From assembly GCA_944324425.1 (NCBI GenBank), contig CALUWE010000003.1, positions 62,001 to 126,000 of the forward strand: a stretch of 64,000 nucleotides of DNA, in the 5' to 3' direction. This DNA is from Candidatus Gastranaerophilales bacterium. Lineage in GTDB: Bacteria; Cyanobacteriota; Vampirovibrionia; Gastranaerophilales; Gastranaerophilaceae. Position numbers and translations under genes: made by a program. This document shows positions 40,078 to 63,377 of the stretch, in pieces. How positions within the stretch are numbered: position 1 is the first letter of the stretch; the number at the start of each line of letters is the position of its first letter. The notes beneath the pieces were generated by a model. The model worked only from the letters and a program-made list of their open reading frames with translations. It made no database searches and had not been told where the DNA came from.

Positions 40078-40107
40078 AAAACGGGGGAACTTAAACCCCC
40101 GTTTTTT
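40078..40107. terminator. Bidirectional intrinsic terminator after metG
   Basis: ACGGGGG (40081-40087) and CCCCCGT (40096-40102) form a GC-rich stem with A-tract and T-tract flanks. It lies between metG and the convergent YkgJ-type gene. Confidence 0.85.
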
Positions 40108-40537
40108 ATTTTAAATATTCAATAAATTTTTTATCCGGCTCAAACCTAAACCCGCAGTTATCTAAAGTTGTCCCCCCCATTTGAATAAATTTCTTGTTAA
40201 TTGAAGGGTAATCACGGCAAAATATCGGGCGAATAAAATATATTGAACAGCGATTATTTTTTAAAAACCTGCATTTGAATAAAATTGCCCCTTCCAATTC
40301 TTCACCTTCATTTTGAACAATTCCGTTTTTGGAAAAAAACCTGTAAATTAAATGCTTCTTTTGCATTTCTTTAAATGTTTCATCATCTTTAACATATCCG
40401 CATTCATTAGAAAAAAGAATGTTTTTGCAGCATTCGCCGCACATTTTGCACTTACCTTTAACAACATATTTAGATGAAGTCAAACGATTTTTGAATGTTA
40501 AAAAAATATCTTCAAAAAAATTTTTAATTCGGTTCAA
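40106..40537 (-). CDS. YkgJ-family cysteine cluster protein
   Basis: A 143-residue protein with the YkgJ (CxxCxxCC) cluster: Cys30, 33, 36 and 37 in CKMCGECC, Cys46, then CRFLKNNRC and FCRDYP downstream. These cysteines probably hold a zinc or iron-sulfur site; the family's function is not well known. The start is TTG at 40537 and overlaps the lipoprotein gene by 14 nt. It is the last gene of the pilT-led leftward operon. Confidence 0.82.
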   Translation of the reverse strand: MNRIKNFFEDIFLTFKNRLTSSKYVVKGKCKMCGECCKNILFSNECGYVKDDETFKEMQKKHLIYRFFSKNGIVQNEGEELEGAILFKCRFLKNNRCSIYFIRPIFCRDYPSINKKFIQMGGTTLDNCGFRFEPDKKFIEYLK

Positions 40538-40934
40538 CTCTCACCATTCCAATCACAACCGGCTGTTTAAAATCCGTAAAATCAAATATTTGAAATATAT
40601 AAAAGCCTCTGTTATTTATAACAACGTAATCTGAAAATGTAGTTTTATTTTTCAATTCAAGCGTTCTGTTATACAAATATTCATAACCCCAAAATTCAGA
40701 TTTTTCATCTTCTTTTTTAAATACCTGCAATTTTAAAAGTCGTGTTTTAAACTGTTTTGGGTTATAAACCGCAAAATAAATTCTATCTCCGACCTTAAAT
40801 TCGTTTGTTGTATTATACAATGTTTCTTTTGTAAAGGGAGTTTTTGAAAAAGCAATAACAGGTTTTTCCTTGTCGCAGCCCGTGGCAAAGAATACGGCAA
40901 CAAAAAGAAAAACAAAAACAATAAGCTTTCTCAA
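40524..40934 (-). CDS. Small putative lipoprotein of unknown function
   Basis: A 136-residue exported protein. The signal sequence MRKLIVFVFLFVAVFFATGC ends in a lipobox with Cys20, followed by DKEKP. The mature part is beta-rich with aromatic residues (YLYNRTLELKN, NNRGFYIFQIFDF), suggesting a small sandwich-like fold. The start codon is TTG in the 4-nt overlap TTGA with the TPR gene, indicating translational coupling. Function unknown; the TPR protein is its likely partner. Confidence 0.8.
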   Translation of the reverse strand: MRKLIVFVFLFVAVFFATGCDKEKPVIAFSKTPFTKETLYNTTNEFKVGDRIYFAVYNPKQFKTRLLKLQVFKKEDEKSEFWGYEYLYNRTLELKNKTTFSDYVVINNRGFYIFQIFDFTDFKQPVVIGMVRVEPN

Positions 40935-42952
40935 TTTACAAGTCCTTCATAAAGAGATTTAACCTTTAGTTCAGCCTGTTTTTTAAGTTCGGCATTTTTG
41001 GTAACTTCAACAAATTTTTCATAGTAATAAATTGCCGTATCTTTGTTTTGTTTCTTTTCATAGCACTTGCCTAAACCCCAATAAGCATAGTCGTAGTTAG
41101 GGTTAACGCCTGAAGCTTTTTCGAAATTTTTAATAGCGGCATCAAAATCATTTTTGTCAAAATCGCAAAGCCCCAAATTAAAATATGCATTTTCATTGTT
41201 CGGGTTTAAAGACAAAGCCTTATTGTAGTTTTCAACAGCTTTAGCATCATCTTTTAAATATTTATACATAGAGCCGATTTTTACATATAAATTGTCGTCA
41301 TTTGGGTTTTTTTCAAGGCTTTTTTGATATAATTCAAGCGCACCTTCAAAATTGCCTGTTTTTGTGTAGCTGTCCGCTAAAAGCTCAAGCGAATCATCGT
41401 CATTATTGTCCAATTCGTATGCCTTTTTATAAGCATTTTGAGCACTCGTTTCTTCATTTAAACTGCTTAAAGATTTGCCGTATTCTTTATAAACTTCTTT
41501 ATCGGTTGGTGCAACTTGAATTGCCTTTTCATACGATTCAACAACTTTTGTTTTGGCCCCCAAACCCTCATAGGTTTTTGCTAACCCTAAATATGCCTTT
41601 GAATTTTCGGGGTTTTCAGCAACTGCTGCCGTATAAATTTCTTTTGCTTTTCTGTAATCTTTTTCTTTCACAAGAGAATTAGCCCACTCAACAGAATTAG
41701 AATAAATACTGTTTGAAATATCGGTTTTTTTAATGCCAAACTCAGCCAAATCACTCGGCTCAAAATAAGAAAGTTTTCTGTAAATATTATCTGCATCTTT
41801 AAATTGCTTCATAGCTTCCAAACAAAGGCCTTTATTATATGCAGCCCTTAAGTTTTTGGAATTAGAAGAAAGTTCTTCTTCATAAATATTTAAAGCATTT
41901 TGAAACTCACCGTTTTGAAAATAACTTTTTGCAAGTTCGTTTTTAATGTCAAAATCAGATGAAACTTTAACCCCTTTTTGAAGAACGCTTATTGCATAAT
42001 TTGGGTTATTGTTCTTTTGATACAAAATGCCAAGGTTCATATAAGCATTTTTATCATTCGGATAAGCTTTTATGTAATCCTGATACGCAGCAACAGCTTC
42101 ATTGGTTTTGCCCATTTGCTCCAGCAATTTACCGTAATCAAATTTTAAATTGTTTAATTCAGGGTTTAATTGAAATGCTTTTTGATAATTTTGATAAGCT
42201 TCTTCATTTTGTTTCAGATATGATTGCACAACAGCTAAATTGCCGTATGAAATATAATCTTGGGGATTAATATTAACAGCATTTTCAAAATTTTCTTTAG
42301 CTTTTAAATATTGGTTATCTCTTAAATATGCAAGCCCTAATTCAGCGTATGATTTAAAAGTGTCGGGGTTTTGTTTTTTAACGTTTTCAAACTCTAAAAT
42401 TGCATTTTTATAATCTTTTAAATTCAGATAACTGTTTGCCAAAAGGTTTTGTGCTTCTTTATTATAAGGGTATGCCGACATAAATTTTTGATAAAAACCA
42501 ATGGCATCATTATATTCTTCGCTGTAAAATTTTGAATTAGCCAAATTCAAATAATTATATTTATAATCCGGCATAATTACCTGAGCTTTTTCATATTGTT
42601 CAAACGCTTTTTTATAATCACCCTTTTGCTGATAAATATTACCCAAGCTTATATATAAAAAAGCGTCATTCGGGCTTAATTCAATTGCTTTATTGTAATA
42701 ATTAACTGCATTTTCAATTTCACCGTTTCTGGCATACAGGCCAGCTAACTTTACAATTAAAGTTAATTCATCCTTAGAATTGTTCAAAGCTTTTTGAATA
42801 AGGTCAATTGCATCATCAAAACGGTTATAATTTTCAAATTTTATTGCTTCCTGATACAATTTATTTGCTTCAGGAGACATTTTAGCATAGCTTGGAAGAG
42901 AAACAAACAATGTCAAAAGAAATAATGCGGTTATATTTTTTCTATTCATCAT
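40931..42952 (-). CDS. Exported tetratricopeptide-repeat protein
   Basis: A 673-residue protein with a signal peptide (NITALFLLTLFVSLPSYA, cleavage near 23) followed by more than a dozen TPR units of 34 residues, each with the A-x4-Y pattern (for example AVNYYNKAIELSP and AYFNLGLCDFDKNDFDAAIKNFEKA). It would form a long superhelix in the periplasm and bind protein partners. It is coupled to the lipoprotein gene and lies in the pilT operon, so a role in pilus or envelope assembly is possible but not shown. Confidence 0.88.
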   Translation of the reverse strand: MMNRKNITALFLLTLFVSLPSYAKMSPEANKLYQEAIKFENYNRFDDAIDLIQKALNNSKDELTLIVKLAGLYARNGEIENAVNYYNKAIELSPNDAFLYISLGNIYQQKGDYKKAFEQYEKAQVIMPDYKYNYLNLANSKFYSEEYNDAIGFYQKFMSAYPYNKEAQNLLANSYLNLKDYKNAILEFENVKKQNPDTFKSYAELGLAYLRDNQYLKAKENFENAVNINPQDYISYGNLAVVQSYLKQNEEAYQNYQKAFQLNPELNNLKFDYGKLLEQMGKTNEAVAAYQDYIKAYPNDKNAYMNLGILYQKNNNPNYAISVLQKGVKVSSDFDIKNELAKSYFQNGEFQNALNIYEEELSSNSKNLRAAYNKGLCLEAMKQFKDADNIYRKLSYFEPSDLAEFGIKKTDISNSIYSNSVEWANSLVKEKDYRKAKEIYTAAVAENPENSKAYLGLAKTYEGLGAKTKVVESYEKAIQVAPTDKEVYKEYGKSLSSLNEETSAQNAYKKAYELDNNDDDSLELLADSYTKTGNFEGALELYQKSLEKNPNDDNLYVKIGSMYKYLKDDAKAVENYNKALSLNPNNENAYFNLGLCDFDKNDFDAAIKNFEKASGVNPNYDYAYWGLGKCYEKKQNKDTAIYYYEKFVEVTKNAELKKQAELKVKSLYEGLVN

Positions 42953-42964
42953 AATAAACTCCTT

Positions 42965-43738
42965 TTAGCCGACATGCGTTTCTTCCATAACTTTAAAAGC
43001 TTTGCTTTTTTTATTACTTGTTATTTCAATATACTTCTTTAAAAGATTAAAGCAACTGTTTGTAACTTTTTCATTTACTATATCATCAAATTCAGTTTTT
43101 TCATTAACGGGGGTATCATTCAGAGCAATTAAAAATTCTCTTATTTTTTCATGCAATTTAACATAATGAACGGAATCAATTGCACAATCCAAACAGGAAA
43201 TTCCGCCCGTTTCAACAGAAAATAAAACCGTTCCTGTCGGTTTTTTTGAACATTTTAAACAGCGTTTTAATTCAATTCCAAAACCCGACAAGTTCATAAA
43301 GGCAAGCTGAAATTTAATTTCAGCCAGCAAAATTTGAGCTTTATTTTCAGCATTTTGAATATTATCAAGCGTATTATAAAGCAAATTATATATTGCCTCA
43401 TTTTGGCTGTTATCCATATTTTCTGATACACAAAACGTATTAATTGTTTCTGCCGTATATATGGCCATTGTCAGCTTATCAAGGTCATATCTTAATTTAT
43501 TAAAAGGGTTTATGGCGCTTACTTCTTTTATAATATCAAGATTTCTTCTTTGAGACAAAATCAAACTGTTTGCAACAAGAGCTTGAGAGGTAGCGCCCAA
43601 TTTACTTTTCGGGCGTTTAACCCCCTTTGCAATCCCTCTTATTAAGCCCATATCTTTTGAAAACATAACAACTATATTGTCAAATTCGCTTATCGGATAT
43701 GTTTTAATGTTTATTGCATCAGTTGAATAATTTTGCAT
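42965..43738 (-). CDS. recO: DNA repair protein RecO
   Basis: RecO helps load RecA at gaps together with RecR. The 257-residue protein has an N-terminal OB fold (YPISEFDNIVVMFSKDMGLIRGIAKGVKRPKSK), a helical domain, and the zinc finger CLKCSKKP..GGISCLDC near 160-180. RecR is encoded in the same window. The gene is inside the pilT operon, 12 nt upstream of the TPR gene. Confidence 0.93.
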   Translation of the reverse strand: MQNYSTDAINIKTYPISEFDNIVVMFSKDMGLIRGIAKGVKRPKSKLGATSQALVANSLILSQRRNLDIIKEVSAINPFNKLRYDLDKLTMAIYTAETINTFCVSENMDNSQNEAIYNLLYNTLDNIQNAENKAQILLAEIKFQLAFMNLSGFGIELKRCLKCSKKPTGTVLFSVETGGISCLDCAIDSVHYVKLHEKIREFLIALNDTPVNEKTEFDDIVNEKVTNSCFNLLKKYIEITSNKKSKAFKVMEETHVG

Positions 43739-43741
43739 TTC

Positions 43742-45226
43742 TCAAGCAGTAACCTTAATTGTGGACATTTCGGAATTTATGAATTCTTCACATAATGAAT
43801 CTTCCGTTATAAAATCGGTTTTAACTTCTATTGAAGAATCAATCTCTTTAAACATTTGTTTGTAATATTCTTTTTTGGTCGTTTCTTTAGACAAAATATA
43901 AACTTTTTTCGGTTTTGAAGCTTCAAAAGCCGTTTTTAAGAACATTGAAGTCAAAGCGCGTGAATTTTCAAGCGGAGGATTAATTAAAATCCAAGTTTCC
44001 GCATGAGACATAGCGCTTATTGCCGATATAAAATAATACGGATTGGCATTTGTTTCAAAATTTAAGGCTTCGTACAAATCGGGATACATAACTCCGGAGC
44101 ATTCTTTACATTGAGTTGTAAGAACCTTATTTTCAGGAGTAACAACGGCTTCTTTTCTTCCGCATTTAGGGCAGTAAAAAATATTTGAAAGTCCGAAAAG
44201 CGGAATAACTTCAATTTTTTTGCCTTCCGATTCTTTTGTTTTCACATTCGGAATTTTAAAATTTATGCCGGATTCAACAAAAGTTTTCAGCAAATTTTCG
44301 CTTTTTGATGTTGTTACAAAATAAACATCACCTTTGATTGTATTCAGCATTTTTAATATTTCAGAATATTCATCCGTTTGTATATCAACTGTGTTTTTAA
44401 CAATTGCAGCATCGGCCATCGGGTTTCCGGCCCTATTTAAAGCAATGGAATCCATTTCAAGACGAAAACTTTTATTTTTAACGTAATCGATAAATGGCGC
44501 CTTATCATCATAAAAAACAGCGACATTATTTAATGTAAGCTCTTTTTCAGGTATAATTTTAAAAGCGGGAACAGTTTCATCCTGCGTATTTTGAACTTCG
44601 TTTTGAACACTTAAAACCGGCTCATCATTAATTGTATTTACCATATTAATAACAGCGTCTTTAGGTGTAAAAATTACCGGCTCCTCTTCCTTAACGGGTT
44701 CATGAGCAATATCAGAAGATGAATCTTGAGAAAAGGTATCATTTGAATCATCATATTTATATTCCGCAACTTGTTGTATTGGCGGTATTTCTTGAACAAC
44801 AGGCTGCTTTGGCAAAATTTCCTGCAAATAAGTATCATCGGAAGCTTTATTTACTTCTTCGGAAATTAAACCCGTCTGCAAACTATCATCTTTAAAAGAA
44901 TTTTCTTCCGTATTTTCAACGGCATTTGGAGTTTCTGCCGTGTTATTTTCTTGCATGGAATCATAAAGATATGAATCAGGCTCTTTGTTATCCAAAATGT
45001 CGTTAATTGTCTTAATTAAAAGCTCTTTGATATCATTTGGAATTTGTTGCTCCTCAACATAAGACAAAATTTGCCTTAAATCATCCAAAAGTACAAATTT
45101 ATAACCGGTATGATACTTTTCATGAAGTTTGTGTGCACCCATTTGTAAAAGTTGCATATCATCTCTTTTAAGAGCAACATACAGCCTTTTAATGGTCATA
45201 TCTTCTGCTTCCGGGAATGGCGCCAT
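43742..45226 (-). CDS. Protein with a degenerate sirtuin-like (Sir2) domain
   Basis: A 494-residue protein: an N-terminal helical region (1-80), an acidic Pro/Glu/Asn-rich linker (about 80-225), and a C-terminal globular part (about 230-490). The last part follows the sirtuin order: FVTTSKSENLLKTFVESGI (303-321) where sirtuins have the TQNIDxLH segment, VIPLFGLSNIFYCPKCG (340-356) where they have the catalytic HG followed by the first zinc pair, a second pair C373/C376, then MYPDLYEAL in place of LRPDVVxFGE. The catalytic His position is Phe344 and the NAD-contact NID is lost. So it is probably an inactive, ligand-binding or structural relative. It lies between pilT and recO, 3 nt before recO. 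Confidence 0.5.
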   Translation of the reverse strand: MAPFPEAEDMTIKRLYVALKRDDMQLLQMGAHKLHEKYHTGYKFVLLDDLRQILSYVEEQQIPNDIKELLIKTINDILDNKEPDSYLYDSMQENNTAETPNAVENTEENSFKDDSLQTGLISEEVNKASDDTYLQEILPKQPVVQEIPPIQQVAEYKYDDSNDTFSQDSSSDIAHEPVKEEEPVIFTPKDAVINMVNTINDEPVLSVQNEVQNTQDETVPAFKIIPEKELTLNNVAVFYDDKAPFIDYVKNKSFRLEMDSIALNRAGNPMADAAIVKNTVDIQTDEYSEILKMLNTIKGDVYFVTTSKSENLLKTFVESGINFKIPNVKTKESEGKKIEVIPLFGLSNIFYCPKCGRKEAVVTPENKVLTTQCKECSGVMYPDLYEALNFETNANPYYFISAISAMSHAETWILINPPLENSRALTSMFLKTAFEASKPKKVYILSKETTKKEYYKQMFKEIDSSIEVKTDFITEDSLCEEFINSEMSTIKVTA

Positions 45227-45244: not shown

Positions 45245-46342
45245 TTAAATTAAATTATTTGAAGAAGGGTCATTCAGACCGTGATAAATGCCCCTCATCA
45301 TCTGATACAGTTCAGTAGGATTATCGCTGTATTCAATAGCAGTTTCTTTTTCTATTAAATTCAGCTTGTACAAATTATAAATGGAAGAATTCATTGTACA
45401 TAAAGCAGAGTTATTTGAGCGTGCAATTAACTGGTCAATATCGCTCATTTTATCTTTAGCAATGTAATCCGAAATTGCGGGCGTGGTTGTCATAAGTTCA
45501 AGTGCAGGAACAAGACCGCCGCCAATTTTTGGCAAAAGTTTTTGTGCAATTGTACCTTTAAGAGCAGCAGATAGTCTTTTTCTGATAAAGTCCTTCTGCT
45601 CCGAATCAAAAAGACCTATAATCCTGTTGATTGTCTGTGTTGCGGAATTAGTGTGAATTGTAGATAAAACAAAGTGTCCCGTTTCAGCTGCGGCAATTGC
45701 GGCTTCAACCGTTTCTTTATCTCTGATTTCACCGATAATTATAATATCAGGGTCTTGTCTTAGGGCATATTTAATCCCTGACGGAAAATCAGGAACGTCA
45801 ATCCCCAAGCCCCTTTGCGTTATTAAACAATTTTTATCGGAATATAAAAATTCGACAGGGTCTTCAATTGTAATAATGTGCCTTCTTTGTGTCTTATTAA
45901 TATTTTCAATCATGGAAGCAATAGTTGTGGATTTCCCCGAACCTGTTGCACCCGTGATTAACAGAATACCCGAATTGCACTCCGTAAAATTTTGAATTGA
46001 GGGCGGAAGCATTAATTGTTCAAAAGTTGGAATATCATAGGGTATAAGCCTCATTGTAATTTTCGGCATTCCCAAATCTTTGCAGTAATTAACCCTATAT
46101 CTTGAAACACCTTTTAATTCATAAGTAAAGTCAAGGTCGGTTGCATCTTTCAACTTATACTGAATATCCTTATGTAAAATTGTAGCCAAAATGCCGTCGA
46201 AATCCTCTTCCGTTAAAGCAGGAGTATCAAGTCTTTGAATTTCGCCCGATATTCTTAAAGAAGGTTGTTTTCCAAGCATTAAATGAACATCTGATGCCTT
46301 AATTTTTGATATTTTCACCAAAAAGTTATTAATCTCAAACAT
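45245..46342 (-). CDS. pilT: Type IV pilus retraction ATPase PilT
   Basis: A 365-residue secretion-type ATPase of the PilT class, which depolymerises type IV pili and gives twitching motility. The N-terminal PAS-like domain starts with KIKASDVHLMLGKQPSLRISGEI, Walker A GATGSGKST is near 130, followed by the Asp box, Walker B IIIGEIRDKETVE, and the His box with AETGHFVLSTIHTN. The C-terminal AIRNLI-type motif of classic PilT is replaced by a divergent tail, which leaves room for a PilT-like variant. It heads the leftward operon; no pilB, pilC or pilM lies nearby. Confidence 0.92.
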   Translation of the reverse strand: MFEINNFLVKISKIKASDVHLMLGKQPSLRISGEIQRLDTPALTEEDFDGILATILHKDIQYKLKDATDLDFTYELKGVSRYRVNYCKDLGMPKITMRLIPYDIPTFEQLMLPPSIQNFTECNSGILLITGATGSGKSTTIASMIENINKTQRRHIITIEDPVEFLYSDKNCLITQRGLGIDVPDFPSGIKYALRQDPDIIIIGEIRDKETVEAAIAAAETGHFVLSTIHTNSATQTINRIIGLFDSEQKDFIRKRLSAALKGTIAQKLLPKIGGGLVPALELMTTTPAISDYIAKDKMSDIDQLIARSNNSALCTMNSSIYNLYKLNLIEKETAIEYSDNPTELYQMMRGIYHGLNDPSSNNLI

Positions 46343-46554: not shown

Positions 46555-47310
46555 ATGGGACTAGCAACAATTAACAGCCAATACACCGGTTTGAACGGTT
46601 TATCAGGTTATGGTTCAACTTATTTTACAGGCGGCGGCCTTTACAGTGATTCTCATGTAGAAAACGCAAAATCAAGCATTGCAAACGGATATGAATTAAG
46701 CGCAACTTCAAGCTCATATTCAAATAAAAATTCCGTTTCATCATCAAGCTTTGCACAACAATGCCAAGCAATAGAATATCTGCTTCAACAAGGAAGAACA
46801 GATGATGCAATGGCAAAATACAATGATTTATATGAAGATATGGCTTCAAATTCTTATTATGAAGGCTATACGGAAAACGAAATTAAAACATTGCTGCAAG
46901 AAAAATACATGACAGCAACAGGCACAACAATCGTAAATGACATTACGGCAAATTCAAGCTCTGCATTCACTAGCGGTTTGGAAAGCTCAATTCCTGTTTT
47001 AGGCGTATTGTTTAATCAAAATTCATCAGATGATTTTGTAGCAGAAGCAACAGGTACGGATGTTTCAGGCTGGTCGCAAGTTAAAAAAGGCGCAGGCTTA
47101 TTGACGGGTGTCGGCTTAAGTGCAGCAGCAGGAGCAGGATTAAAAGTAGGCGTAAGCGCATTAAAAAATCTCAAAGCAGGTTCAACAATAACAGATGCAA
47201 TCTCAAAAGCATCAACAGGCAAAGGCAAAATTGTAGCAGCATGTATTGCAGGCGGCGCAGCACTTTTAACATATCTTGGCGGTAAATTATTTAAATCCGA
47301 CAATGAATAA
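46555..47310 (+). CDS. Protein of unknown function with glycine/alanine-rich hydrophobic C-terminus
   Basis: A 251-residue protein. The N-terminus (MGLATINSQYTGLNGLSGYG) is Gly/Ser/Tyr-rich without a signal peptide, residues 60-130 are helical with many Gln, and the C-terminal third has two hydrophobic Gly/Ala stretches (near 178-197 and 225-243). This two-segment layout is seen in some secreted membrane-inserting proteins, but no family is recognised. GGAAGGAAG is a good ribosome site. Its upstream region shares motifs with the coiled-coil pair and autotransporter. A terminator follows. Confidence 0.75.
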   Translation: MGLATINSQYTGLNGLSGYGSTYFTGGGLYSDSHVENAKSSIANGYELSATSSSYSNKNSVSSSSFAQQCQAIEYLLQQGRTDDAMAKYNDLYEDMASNSYYEGYTENEIKTLLQEKYMTATGTTIVNDITANSSSAFTSGLESSIPVLGVLFNQNSSDDFVAEATGTDVSGWSQVKKGAGLLTGVGLSAAAGAGLKVGVSALKNLKAGSTITDAISKASTGKGKIVAACIAGGAALLTYLGGKLFKSDNE

Positions 47311-59306: not shown

Positions 59307-62300
59307 TTATTCTTTACCGACGGCAAACCTTAAGCCTGCATTAAGAGTAACGCCGTTACGACCGCCGTTTTGAACAAGCGCCTGACCAAAGAATGTGAGC
59401 CTGTCATTTTTAAACAGCTTCTGAACGCCGACACCGTATTGAACATAAGGATCAATGCTCATTTCGGGAAGTCTTACATCATTTGCCGTAACCTTGGTTT
59501 TATCAAGAATGTTCCAAATCATATCAGCTCTTAAATACGGCTGCCAGCCTGATTCGGTATTCATGATAAACTTAACTCCCGGGGCAATTTGAATGGCATG
59601 CAACGGGTCTGATTTTACTTTATACCCTGCAGCGCTTGTATAATCAAATGTATTAACAAAAGTGTATGTCAAAAGCAAATTAGGCTGGAATATAAATTTG
59701 CCGTCTTTAAATTCAAAGTTGTAACCGAATTTGTTACCTATACCTGATACAAACATGGTATAATCTTCATCACCGTAATATGTTGATGAACTGCCTACTG
59801 AAGCACCGGCAGAAATTGTTGTTGCGTTAAAAAAGTTGTTTTTATATAAAGTTGCAGTAAGGCCTGCCAAACCGCCGTTTTGATATGTATCAATGCCTGA
59901 ATATCTTTGGCTTGCACCGTTATATCCCAAATAACCGGTTAAAACTCTTTCCCAACCGTTTCTTAGGTGTCTTAAATTAGTGTCATAACCAACCAACGTA
60001 CCGTAAGAAATGTTTGATACATCAGGACCGTTATTTAAAGGAATATTTTCAAAAGATGAATAAGGTTTAACCCAAACACCCGACATATCAAGCTTTGTTA
60101 ACAACGGAGAGAAATTACCGACATCAGTTGTGTCAGACGTTGGAGCATAAGCATATCTGTCCGAATTTATAACTGCCATACGTTCAAAAGAAGGAAGTGC
60201 CATAAATGCATCAGAATGTTTGAATGCATATTCAAAAGTTTGAAGCTGTGAGGTGTAGGCGCCTGCCTGAGATGAAATTGAAGGCGAAAGCGCCGAAGGG
60301 TTATAGCTGTCATAAGAAGAAGCATTGCCCCTGTTAAATACAAAATAACCCATATCATCATCTTTAATATTATAAGCAATGTCATACTTATAAATGGGTG
60401 AATAAGCAACATTCTTTTCATTAACGGAAATAGGATTATCACCTTTATATTGAACATTATTAGCAATTTCTTTATCAGCATAAAGAATTGAAACGCTGTC
60501 TTTATCAGTGTCATTCAATAAGTTCAGGAATGTAACATTGATATTGGGGTTGTTTTGATTGTTAACAACATAGTTATTTGCCGTAATTCTGTCCATTGTT
60601 TCTTGTTGCAAGTTAACATCGGCCGTTGTTTGAATAGTGTTATTCAAAGTAAGGGTATTAAAAGCGGTAGAGCCGATTTGGCTGTTAACCATATCAAAAG
60701 TACCGGAATTAAATGTCATGTTATTATTTCTAAGTACATCGTCTCTTGTTCCGAGCTTCAAAGTAACATTGTTTAAAAACATATCGGCTTCACCTTCAAC
60801 ATCATTGTTAAAGACAATTTTGCCTGTACTGTCGCCGGTTACGTATATTTTATAATTTTCGTCATTTTCTTCTTTTATAACATTTTCGGTAATTTCGTCT
60901 GTGGAATTATCATAAATTTCCTGAATTTCAGAACCGCCCTTTTCACCGTTTATTTTATCGTCAATTTGAATTGTGCCGTTTGTTTTAGCTTCCAATATCA
61001 AACTGGAGGGCTGAACTTTATAAGAAGTAATCTCAACAGGGTTATCAATTTCATATATGGTTGTCGCAAGAGTGCTGTTTGCCATATAAATGGCATTGTC
61101 GTCTCTTTCGCCGTCAGAAACGGTGTAGTTGCCGGAAATCAAAGAAGTATAGCCGTCTTTAGCCTGAATTTTAATATTATGTGTCGAATAAATTGCACCG
61201 CCTTTTGCCGTTCCGTCGGATTCAGCGTGGTTATTAATAAATGAAGCGTTAGAAATAACCATGGAAGTAGCAGGCAAGGAAGAAACAGGATAATTTTCAT
61301 CCAAATATTTACCAAAGTCGCCTTCTATTGCACCTTCGGAAGAAACAACGAAATTAATAAAGTCATCTACCGAATCAAAGGACATTCCGGATTCTGACAT
61401 AATATCTTTTACTTCATTTTCAGACATAATCTCGGTAGAAATGTCATATGAACTAATTGTTTTATTATTATCAATAAAAGCTTTAATGATGACAGGACTT
61501 AAATCATGCGAAGTCGAAAAGACCTTTTCGGTTCCGTCATTCATTTTAATTTTTACAACGTTAATTTCAATCGGTTGAAGCGGCATATTTGTATCATAAG
61601 ACAAAGGAAGAGATTCATTATAAATTGCACCGCCGTATGCAACCGCATTTTCTCCGGTTGCTTTTGCATAGTTTTCAACAAAGTTGCCTTCAACTTTACC
61701 TGCCATAAACGAGTTAAGCAATGCACCGCCATAAGCATTTGAATTTTCGCCGGACGATAATGCAGCGTTCTTATAAAAATCACCCTTAATTGAGCCGATT
61801 GTGCCGGCATTATAAATTGCACCGCCGCCTGCAAAGGAATTAAGCGCATCTGATGCAGTTGAAGAGTTATTTGAAAAATTACCCGCGATTTTATCAATAA
61901 CGGAATCCTCCTGCATATTTGAAACGGCGCCGCCAAGACTTTCAGAATAAAAAGAAGCAGAGGATGAAGAACTGTTATTATAAAAATTGCCGTTGATATT
62001 TGAAATGAGTCCGTCATTTACAATTGCGCCGCCGTATGAATAAGCGGAAGTTCCTGCATAAGAAGGGCTTGTAACAAGCGAATCTGATTTATTTGAAATA
62101 AAATCACCTGTAATATTTGCTATCAATGAACTGTTTTGTATTGCGCCGCCATAAGATTCTGCATAGCCTTCATCTGAAATTGCATTTGCATAGTTGGCAA
62201 TAAAATCACCCGAAATATCATAAATAAATGCATTATAAGACGAAATTGCGCCGCCTGAAGCAGAAGCATATCCGTCAACAGTTTCAGCCTTTACATAATT

Positions 62301-63377
62301 TTGTATAAAATTACCGGCAACAGAATTAACATCAACACTATCAATGGCAATTGCACCGCCGTATGAATAAGCATCATATTCAGAGCATGCCTCAGAGGCG
62401 TTTTGAATAAAATCACCTTTAACGGATTCCAAATTGCCTCCGGAATAAAGGGCGCCGCCATAAGAAACAGCGGAATTATCAGCAATGGAAACAGTCTTAT
62501 TACCTATAAAATTGGCATTTATAGTGCCGATATTAGCGCCATGGTTATTGGTGATTGCACCGCCTGCAACTTCACTTTCCCCGTATTGGGTTTCAGCAGA
62601 AGCAATATTATTTACAAAATTGCCGTTTATGGAGTCAATTGAAGAACTTTCGTTAGAAATCGCACCGCCGGCGGAAACAACATTTCCGTTTATTGAAGAA
62701 ACAACGGAAGAGTTTTCGACAAAATCTCCGGTAATATCGCCAATAAGAGAATTGCAGCTGTTAATTATAGCGCCGCCGTATATTGAAACATATCCGTTCG
62801 CATTTGTTATTGCAACTCGGTTTTTAATAAAATTGCCGTTAATATCGCCAATTACACCTTCATAGTTAGTAATGGCGCCGCCAAAAAAGTGGCCTGCGCT
62901 GCCGTCCGCTAAAATCGAATTGCCGTAAAAATCGGCATTAATGTCCGCCAAATCACCGTAATTTGCAATTGCACCGCCTTGAGTAACACCATCCGTTAAA
63001 AGATTAAAAAATGAACCCTCAACAGTCTGGTTGGAAAAATCATGATTTTCTAATCTTGCATTTGAAGTGCCGGTTAAATCAACAGGAACATAGTTAAACA
63101 AAATCGTACCCGTTTTTGAATACGGAGAATCAACCGAAATGGTTTTTGAGCCGGACTTATTGCCGTATTGCGTAACATCCAGATTAACTTTATAGTATTT
63201 CGGAGAATAAGAACCTTGACTTGAATCCGGCTCATATTTAACAATAACATTTTTACTGCTGTCAGAGCTGTCTGTTTCAGTAAGTTCGTATGCCAAAGCA
63301 GGTGATAAATATAAAGTCGGAAAACTAAACAAAAGCAATGCTGCAACTGCGCCTTTCGGGGAATGAAAGCTAGCCAT
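59307..63377 (-). CDS. Pmp-like autotransporter with GGA[ILV]/FxxN repeats
   Basis: A 1356-residue surface protein. The signal peptide (AVAALLLFSFPTLYLSPALA) is followed by a passenger with about fifteen GGA[ILV] motifs and fourteen FxxN motifs spaced 25-40 residues apart, for example GGAITNYEG..INGNFIKN. This pairing is the hallmark of chlamydial polymorphic membrane proteins. The last about 280 residues (from about 1075) form an autotransporter beta-barrel, beginning GVWVKPYSSFEN and ending LNAGLRFAVGKE. The ATG at 63377 has GAGGG upstream; the frame extends eight residues further from TTG. Expected to be an adhesin-like outer-membrane protein. Confidence 0.9.
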   Translation of the reverse strand: MASFHSPKGAVAALLLFSFPTLYLSPALAYELTETDSSDSSKNVIVKYEPDSSQGSYSPKYYKVNLDVTQYGNKSGSKTISVDSPYSKTGTILFNYVPVDLTGTSNARLENHDFSNQTVEGSFFNLLTDGVTQGGAIANYGDLADINADFYGNSILADGSAGHFFGGAITNYEGVIGDINGNFIKNRVAITNANGYVSIYGGAIINSCNSLIGDITGDFVENSSVVSSINGNVVSAGGAISNESSSIDSINGNFVNNIASAETQYGESEVAGGAITNNHGANIGTINANFIGNKTVSIADNSAVSYGGALYSGGNLESVKGDFIQNASEACSEYDAYSYGGAIAIDSVDVNSVAGNFIQNYVKAETVDGYASASGGAISSYNAFIYDISGDFIANYANAISDEGYAESYGGAIQNSSLIANITGDFISNKSDSLVTSPSYAGTSAYSYGGAIVNDGLISNINGNFYNNSSSSSASFYSESLGGAVSNMQEDSVIDKIAGNFSNNSSTASDALNSFAGGGAIYNAGTIGSIKGDFYKNAALSSGENSNAYGGALLNSFMAGKVEGNFVENYAKATGENAVAYGGAIYNESLPLSYDTNMPLQPIEINVVKIKMNDGTEKVFSTSHDLSPVIIKAFIDNNKTISSYDISTEIMSENEVKDIMSESGMSFDSVDDFINFVVSSEGAIEGDFGKYLDENYPVSSLPATSMVISNASFINNHAESDGTAKGGAIYSTHNIKIQAKDGYTSLISGNYTVSDGERDDNAIYMANSTLATTIYEIDNPVEITSYKVQPSSLILEAKTNGTIQIDDKINGEKGGSEIQEIYDNSTDEITENVIKEENDENYKIYVTGDSTGKIVFNNDVEGEADMFLNNVTLKLGTRDDVLRNNNMTFNSGTFDMVNSQIGSTAFNTLTLNNTIQTTADVNLQQETMDRITANNYVVNNQNNPNINVTFLNLLNDTDKDSVSILYADKEIANNVQYKGDNPISVNEKNVAYSPIYKYDIAYNIKDDDMGYFVFNRGNASSYDSYNPSALSPSISSQAGAYTSQLQTFEYAFKHSDAFMALPSFERMAVINSDRYAYAPTSDTTDVGNFSPLLTKLDMSGVWVKPYSSFENIPLNNGPDVSNISYGTLVGYDTNLRHLRNGWERVLTGYLGYNGASQRYSGIDTYQNGGLAGLTATLYKNNFFNATTISAGASVGSSSTYYGDEDYTMFVSGIGNKFGYNFEFKDGKFIFQPNLLLTYTFVNTFDYTSAAGYKVKSDPLHAIQIAPGVKFIMNTESGWQPYLRADMIWNILDKTKVTANDVRLPEMSIDPYVQYGVGVQKLFKNDRLTFFGQALVQNGGRNGVTLNAGLRFAVGKE

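Follow-up and report, generated by a model that had tools for sequence, protein, structure and literature searches.

A predicted pseudo-sirtuin encoded beside a pilT paralogue in Gastranaerophilales

Introduction

What role can be filled by a protein that is predicted to fold as a sirtuin, has lost the residues for NAD use, and is encoded directly after a pilus motor gene? The question is raised by gene X, which lies in the window, i.e., the whole 64,000-nucleotide stretch of Gastranaerophilales DNA analyzed here. To our knowledge, the motility of Gastranaerophilales, which are gut bacteria, has barely been studied. The order has been reported to possess pilA, pilB, pilC, pilT, and pilD (PMC5877343). 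The initial annotation of the locus described X as a dead sirtuin fold joined to an acidic linker and a helical N-terminus, and suggested that it might act as a zinc/nucleotide sensor or as a scaffold for pilus or surface regulation.

Results

X is the second gene of an apparent operon (Table 1) composed of pilT (the paralogue referred to here as pilT2), X, recO, and genes that encode a TPR protein, a small protein whose start resembles that of a lipoprotein, and a CxxCxxCC protein. All share one orientation, neighbors overlap or lie no more than 19 bp apart, and a terminator-like hairpin (40078-40105) is found 3' of the last gene. The initial placement of X between pilT and recO agrees with the family matches of both neighbors, and PilT2 of the window scores 399 bits against TIGR01420, for which the cut-off is 319. 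The AAGGAG ribosome-binding site of X is found just 5' of its ATG, after the pilT stop codon, and recO starts 3 bp past the X stop codon. On the other side of pilT2 and on the plus strand (window 46555-47310), there is a divergent gene of 251 aa that is Gly/Ser-rich with a possible hydrophobic tail; it has no Pfam or NCBIfam match, and homologues from several genera (L067, L068, and L069) are likewise located next to pilT2. Farther along the window, a frame of 1355 aa (59310-63374, minus strand) begins with a signal-like segment and matches no Pfam family at E 0.001.

Table 1. Window coordinates of gene X, its domains, and the genes of its apparent operon.
Feature	Coordinates	Strand	Evidence
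Pseudo-sirtuin gene X, 494 aa	43742..45226	-	Open frame, ATG, AAGGAG ribosome-binding site, 45 distinct homologues
N-domain of X, residues 1-82, four-helix bundle, invariant E8/R14/A18	44981..45226	-	AlphaFold2, alignment, dN/dS
Disordered acidic linker of X, residues 89-230	44537..44962	-	pLDDT, charge count, dN/dS, homologue lengths
C-domain of X, residues 228-490, predicted sirtuin fold without NAD motifs	43757..44545	-	Foldseek, VIA-align, profile comparison, motif counts, dN/dS
Zinc-ribbon-like four-Cys module, C352/C355/C373/C376	44099..44173	-	Invariant Cys; zinc-ribbon Pfam matches below cut-off
PilT2 (pilT paralogue) directly upstream of X, intact Walker A GSGKST	45245..46342	-	TIGR01420, motif positions
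recO directly downstream of X	42965..43738	-	PF11967 and PF02565
Rest of apparent operon: TPR protein, small lipoprotein-like protein, CxxCxxCC protein	40106..42952	-	Same strand, 12 bp gaps or overlaps; Pfam

AlphaFold2, supplied with a 20-row alignment, predicted two confident domains in X separated by a disordered stretch (about residues 89-231), with the C-domain (about residues 230-490) folded as a sirtuin. The first 44 Foldseek matches of this model in the PDB are all sirtuins or SIR2 proteins (best E 3.2e-7), and FAM118B chains are among its matches. VIA-align places model residues 232-488 on Escherichia coli CobB with a Z of 14.2 and an rmsd of 3.6 over 205 of 235 residues. According to both comparisons, the predicted structure comprises a Rossmann domain and a small zinc/helical module in the sirtuin order, which bears out the order first proposed for the C-terminal part.

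Profile comparison points in the same direction. The C-domain profile matches four SIR2-like proteins of the SIR2_2 type, a small set from the same phylum chosen by the motif KLHG[SN] among PF13289 matches, with a probability of 97.5%, as against at most 0.2% for reversed profiles and at most 1.2% for 60 column shuffles; one of the four, L152, has four Cys as X does. Two canonical sirtuins tested in the same way matched weakly, up to 10%, so X appears nearest to the SIR2_2-like rather than the CobB-like branch within this limited comparison. When PDB sequences were searched with a profile, ten sirtuin sequences took the top ranks with weak E values (0.0016-0.009); a single-sequence search of the same sequences returned chance matches only, and no match below E 0.0018 came from the viral fold library. 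None of the family libraries searched names X, and its scores for SIR2 (PF02146) and SIR2_2 (PF13289) fall below the Pfam gathering cut-off. Such scores would suit convergence, i.e., a Rossmann domain unrelated to sirtuins into which a zinc ribbon was inserted, but the structural match extends over nearly the whole CobB domain, the profile match far exceeds its shuffles, and deep homologues carry a KLxGSxDWFxC motif, which together make convergence the least probable of the readings considered. On the model and the profiles, the C-domain of X is a member of the SIR2/sirtuin fold superfamily. A canonical sirtuin was looked for elsewhere in the window's genome and was not found. Two other genomes of the order encode short sirtuin-like proteins in frames of 142 and 191 aa (L103:1453-1878 and L104:1462-2034, respectively), having GAGIS, TMNVD, and LHG/IHG motifs without the zinc module.

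The residues first singled out in X are all present: VTTSKSEN (304-311), VIPLFGLSNIFYCPKCG (340-356), Phe344, the pairs C352/C355 and C373/C376, and MYPDLYEAL (380-388). The two pairs, which are the CxxC pairs of canonical zinc sirtuins, are invariant together with G345 in 45 of 45 homologues. Conservation had also been anticipated for Phe344 as the replacement of the catalytic His, and here the alignment disagrees: this position is Phe in the window but varies across the family (F in 24 homologues, L in nine, G in seven, and V, Q, Y, A, and C once each), with His in none, so the conserved trait is the absence of His and not Phe344. The earlier alignment of NID with SEN (309-311) is likewise replaced, because the shared Thr places TQNID best on T305-T306-S307-K308-S309, where N and D are both Ser. 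Throughout the family, the Asn position of TxNxD is S in 36 of the 45 homologues and N in none, while the Asp position is S in 38 and D in one, i.e., the motif has mostly become TxSxS. The GAGxS loop for NAD reads YDDKA in the window and is variable in other homologues, none of which has GAG. The GxS ribose/phosphate loop is now a proline loop, N/H-P-P/S (xPP or xPS); P417 (45/45) and W412 (44/45) lie in or beside the strand that replaces it.

Three deep homologues have KLCGSIDWFYC, KLAGSLDWFYC, and KLGGAIDRFAC at the His block, where the intact relative L152 has FKLHGSLNWGYC. Since these deep homologues lack His too, the loss of catalytic and NAD residues is old and shared, with the fold and the cysteines kept. 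As judged from the aligned residues, X is a pseudo-sirtuin, as the term dead sirtuin had implied. The retained canonical fold and four-Cys module could still belong to an active enzyme, NAD-consuming or deacylase, whose catalytic residues have shifted, an idea that becomes highly improbable given that His is missing in every homologue and that the Asn and Asp of TxNxD, GAG, and the GxS loop were lost together. The same joint loss of every alignable NAD-contact motif makes NAD sensing, one form of the sensor role first suggested, unlikely.

The helical N-terminus and the acidic linker were both confirmed in the model and the composition. The N-domain (about residues 6-82) is predicted as a confident four-helix bundle, with a mean AlphaFold2 pLDDT of 85 when folded alone, and E8, R14, and A18 are invariant in the 45-row alignment. 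Every genome in which its profile finds a match also carries X. Foldseek gave no significant match for the N-domain (best E 0.3), its Pfam matches were scattered, and a plasmid search with it returned no match. VIA-align reached Z values of up to 10.3 with HEAT/ARM-like and TFIIS-N-like bundles; no family is claimed on this basis because such a Z between small helical bundles may reflect nothing more than a common arrangement. The linker (residues 89-230) contains 32 D+E against 8 K+R at a pLDDT below 50, and it reads as a spacer because the interdomain length varies from 19 to 233 aa among homologues, as expected of a spacer.

Selection differs among these parts. In pairwise comparison with three close relatives, where synonymous sites are near saturation and the values are rough, dN/dS is 0.024-0.052 for the N-domain and 0.022-0.052 for PilT2, i.e., equal constraint, 0.09-0.12 for the C-domain, and 0.2-0.5 for the linker; RecO has 0.06-0.10, a range that leaves out G004, whose contig ends before recO. 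A decaying pseudogene is ruled out by these low values, and purifying selection strong enough to produce them indicates that X is a maintained pseudo-sirtuin in use. The nearly invariant W412 and P417 show that the region replacing the GxS loop is conserved and not merely eroded, which, like the constraint on the C-domain (dN/dS about 0.1), would suit a remodeled sensor whose old NAD pocket binds another small molecule and relays the signal to the pilus motor. However, no ligand match was obtained, Pro and Trp can be structural, and the loop in place of GAG is variable; we consider this sensor unlikely.

X was identified in 21 of 98 relatives and in 42 of 286 genomes of the order. The low-scoring matches G445, G448, and G454 contain stops and were left out. 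In most carriers, across two classes of the phylum, X is directly 3' of a pilT paralogue, and in every pilT-linked carrier, no more than about 60 bp separate the pilT2 stop from the start of X. Three carriers of family f3 have X away from pilT2, and at the two of these loci read at length, a gene of 228-237 aa, not pilT, precedes X (L072:4819-5502 and L074:8705-9415). Most genomes with pilT2 have no X, indicating that X is dispensable. Within the window's family, recO comes immediately after pilT2 in genomes that lack X. In the second class, where pilT2-X occurs in three of 18 genomes, four X-less genomes have a lipoprotein-like gene after pilT2, similar to one found after X in the carrier L115.

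The order of genes also bears on the idea that X serves its downstream neighbors (recO, and with it DNA uptake or repair) and that the pilT neighborhood is incidental. The 3 bp spacing to recO in the window and the presence of recO after X in most carriers of the window's family speak for such a role; it becomes improbable, however, as other families of the order, and also the second class, retain pilT2-X without recO. In the PilT2 tree, a single clade (100/99) unites the X carriers of the window's family; the whole presence pattern of X requires 5 gains or losses. About 15 PilT2 positions, many of them in residues 25-96, are conserved in the clade of carriers and absent in non-carriers; these would fit an altered partner surface, a comparison confounded by ancestry.

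Discussion

The leading reading, which is put forward tentatively, is that X is a pseudo-sirtuin nearest to the SIR2_2/antiphage-like branch, tethered to a four-helix bundle and working, without enzymatic activity, as a partner of the PilT2 encoded next to it. Of the two roles suggested initially, the scaffold or adaptor is thus the better reading, and gene neighborhood and constraint are what point to it. The N-domain is the probable docking part because of its invariant E8, R14, and A18, its PilT2-level constraint, and its presence only together with X. It would dock on PilT2 or on another constrained part of the pilus motor, the tethered dead sirtuin domain would bind a second protein or a regulatory ligand, and X may in this way tune where or when PilT2 drives pilus retraction. 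Physical contact between X and PilT2, the choice of the contacting domain, and the regulatory outcome are all putative steps.

The partner role is favored by the linkage to pilT2, the constraint on the N-domain, the clade-specific positions of PilT2, and the direct pilT2-recO and pilT2-lipoprotein-like joins in genomes without X. Against it count the unlinked f3 carriers, the dispensability of X, the adjacency of recO, which leaves a DNA-related role possible, and the result for PilM_2 (PF11104), which had no match in the whole genome of the window although five PilT-family and related ATPase matches were found there. A reduced or divergent pilus machine is possible in this genome.

A broader proposal concerns the origin of the family, namely that, early in the non-photosynthetic branches of the cyanobacterial phylum, a dead SIR2 family with a dedicated four-helix docking domain was recruited from an NAD-consuming, defense-type ancestor to control an ATPase of pilus retraction; we regard this as conceivable but doubtful. 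Pili are phage receptors, and the intact relative L152 matches PADLOC SIR2 models, so X might instead be a pilus-linked anti-phage protein descended from a defense SIR2. X itself, however, matches no PADLOC model, lacks the NADase residues, and remains in a single operon together with housekeeping genes of the chromosome; an anti-phage function is very improbable.

The X family is conserved and linked to the gene for a pilus motor, and it can be tested in vitro. As a PilT2 partner, X would show the reuse of SIR2 domains as binding modules and would be the first candidate regulator of pilus retraction in Gastranaerophilales. No description of a bacterial pseudo-sirtuin family was found in the open-licence papers searched.

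Comparison with known systems

PilU and other PilT accessory factors resemble X in being encoded beside a PilT-family ATPase, but X is not an ATPase, and the family scans revealed no relation to PilU. Canonical zinc sirtuins such as CobB, Sir2Tm, and Sir2Af1 (PF02146) share with X the predicted fold and four Cys in the same place, whereas X lacks their catalytic His and NAD motifs, scores below their Pfam cut-off, and matches the two tested only weakly by profile. The closest likeness is to SIR2_2-type proteins (PF13289; the ThsA/Aga_SIR2/FAM118 branch), which give the best profile match and whose KLHGSxxW motif corresponds, with the region after it, to KLxGSxxW in X. Unlike these proteins, X has no catalytic His, GAG loop, or TxNxD and possesses a four-Cys module, which has been reported as lacking in FAM118B and other SIR2_2 proteins (PMC12700824). 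Human FAM118A and FAM118B are SIR2_2 proteins that have weak activity alone, act together, and keep the active-site His and Asn (PMC12700824); X goes further than this pair, having lost both residues.
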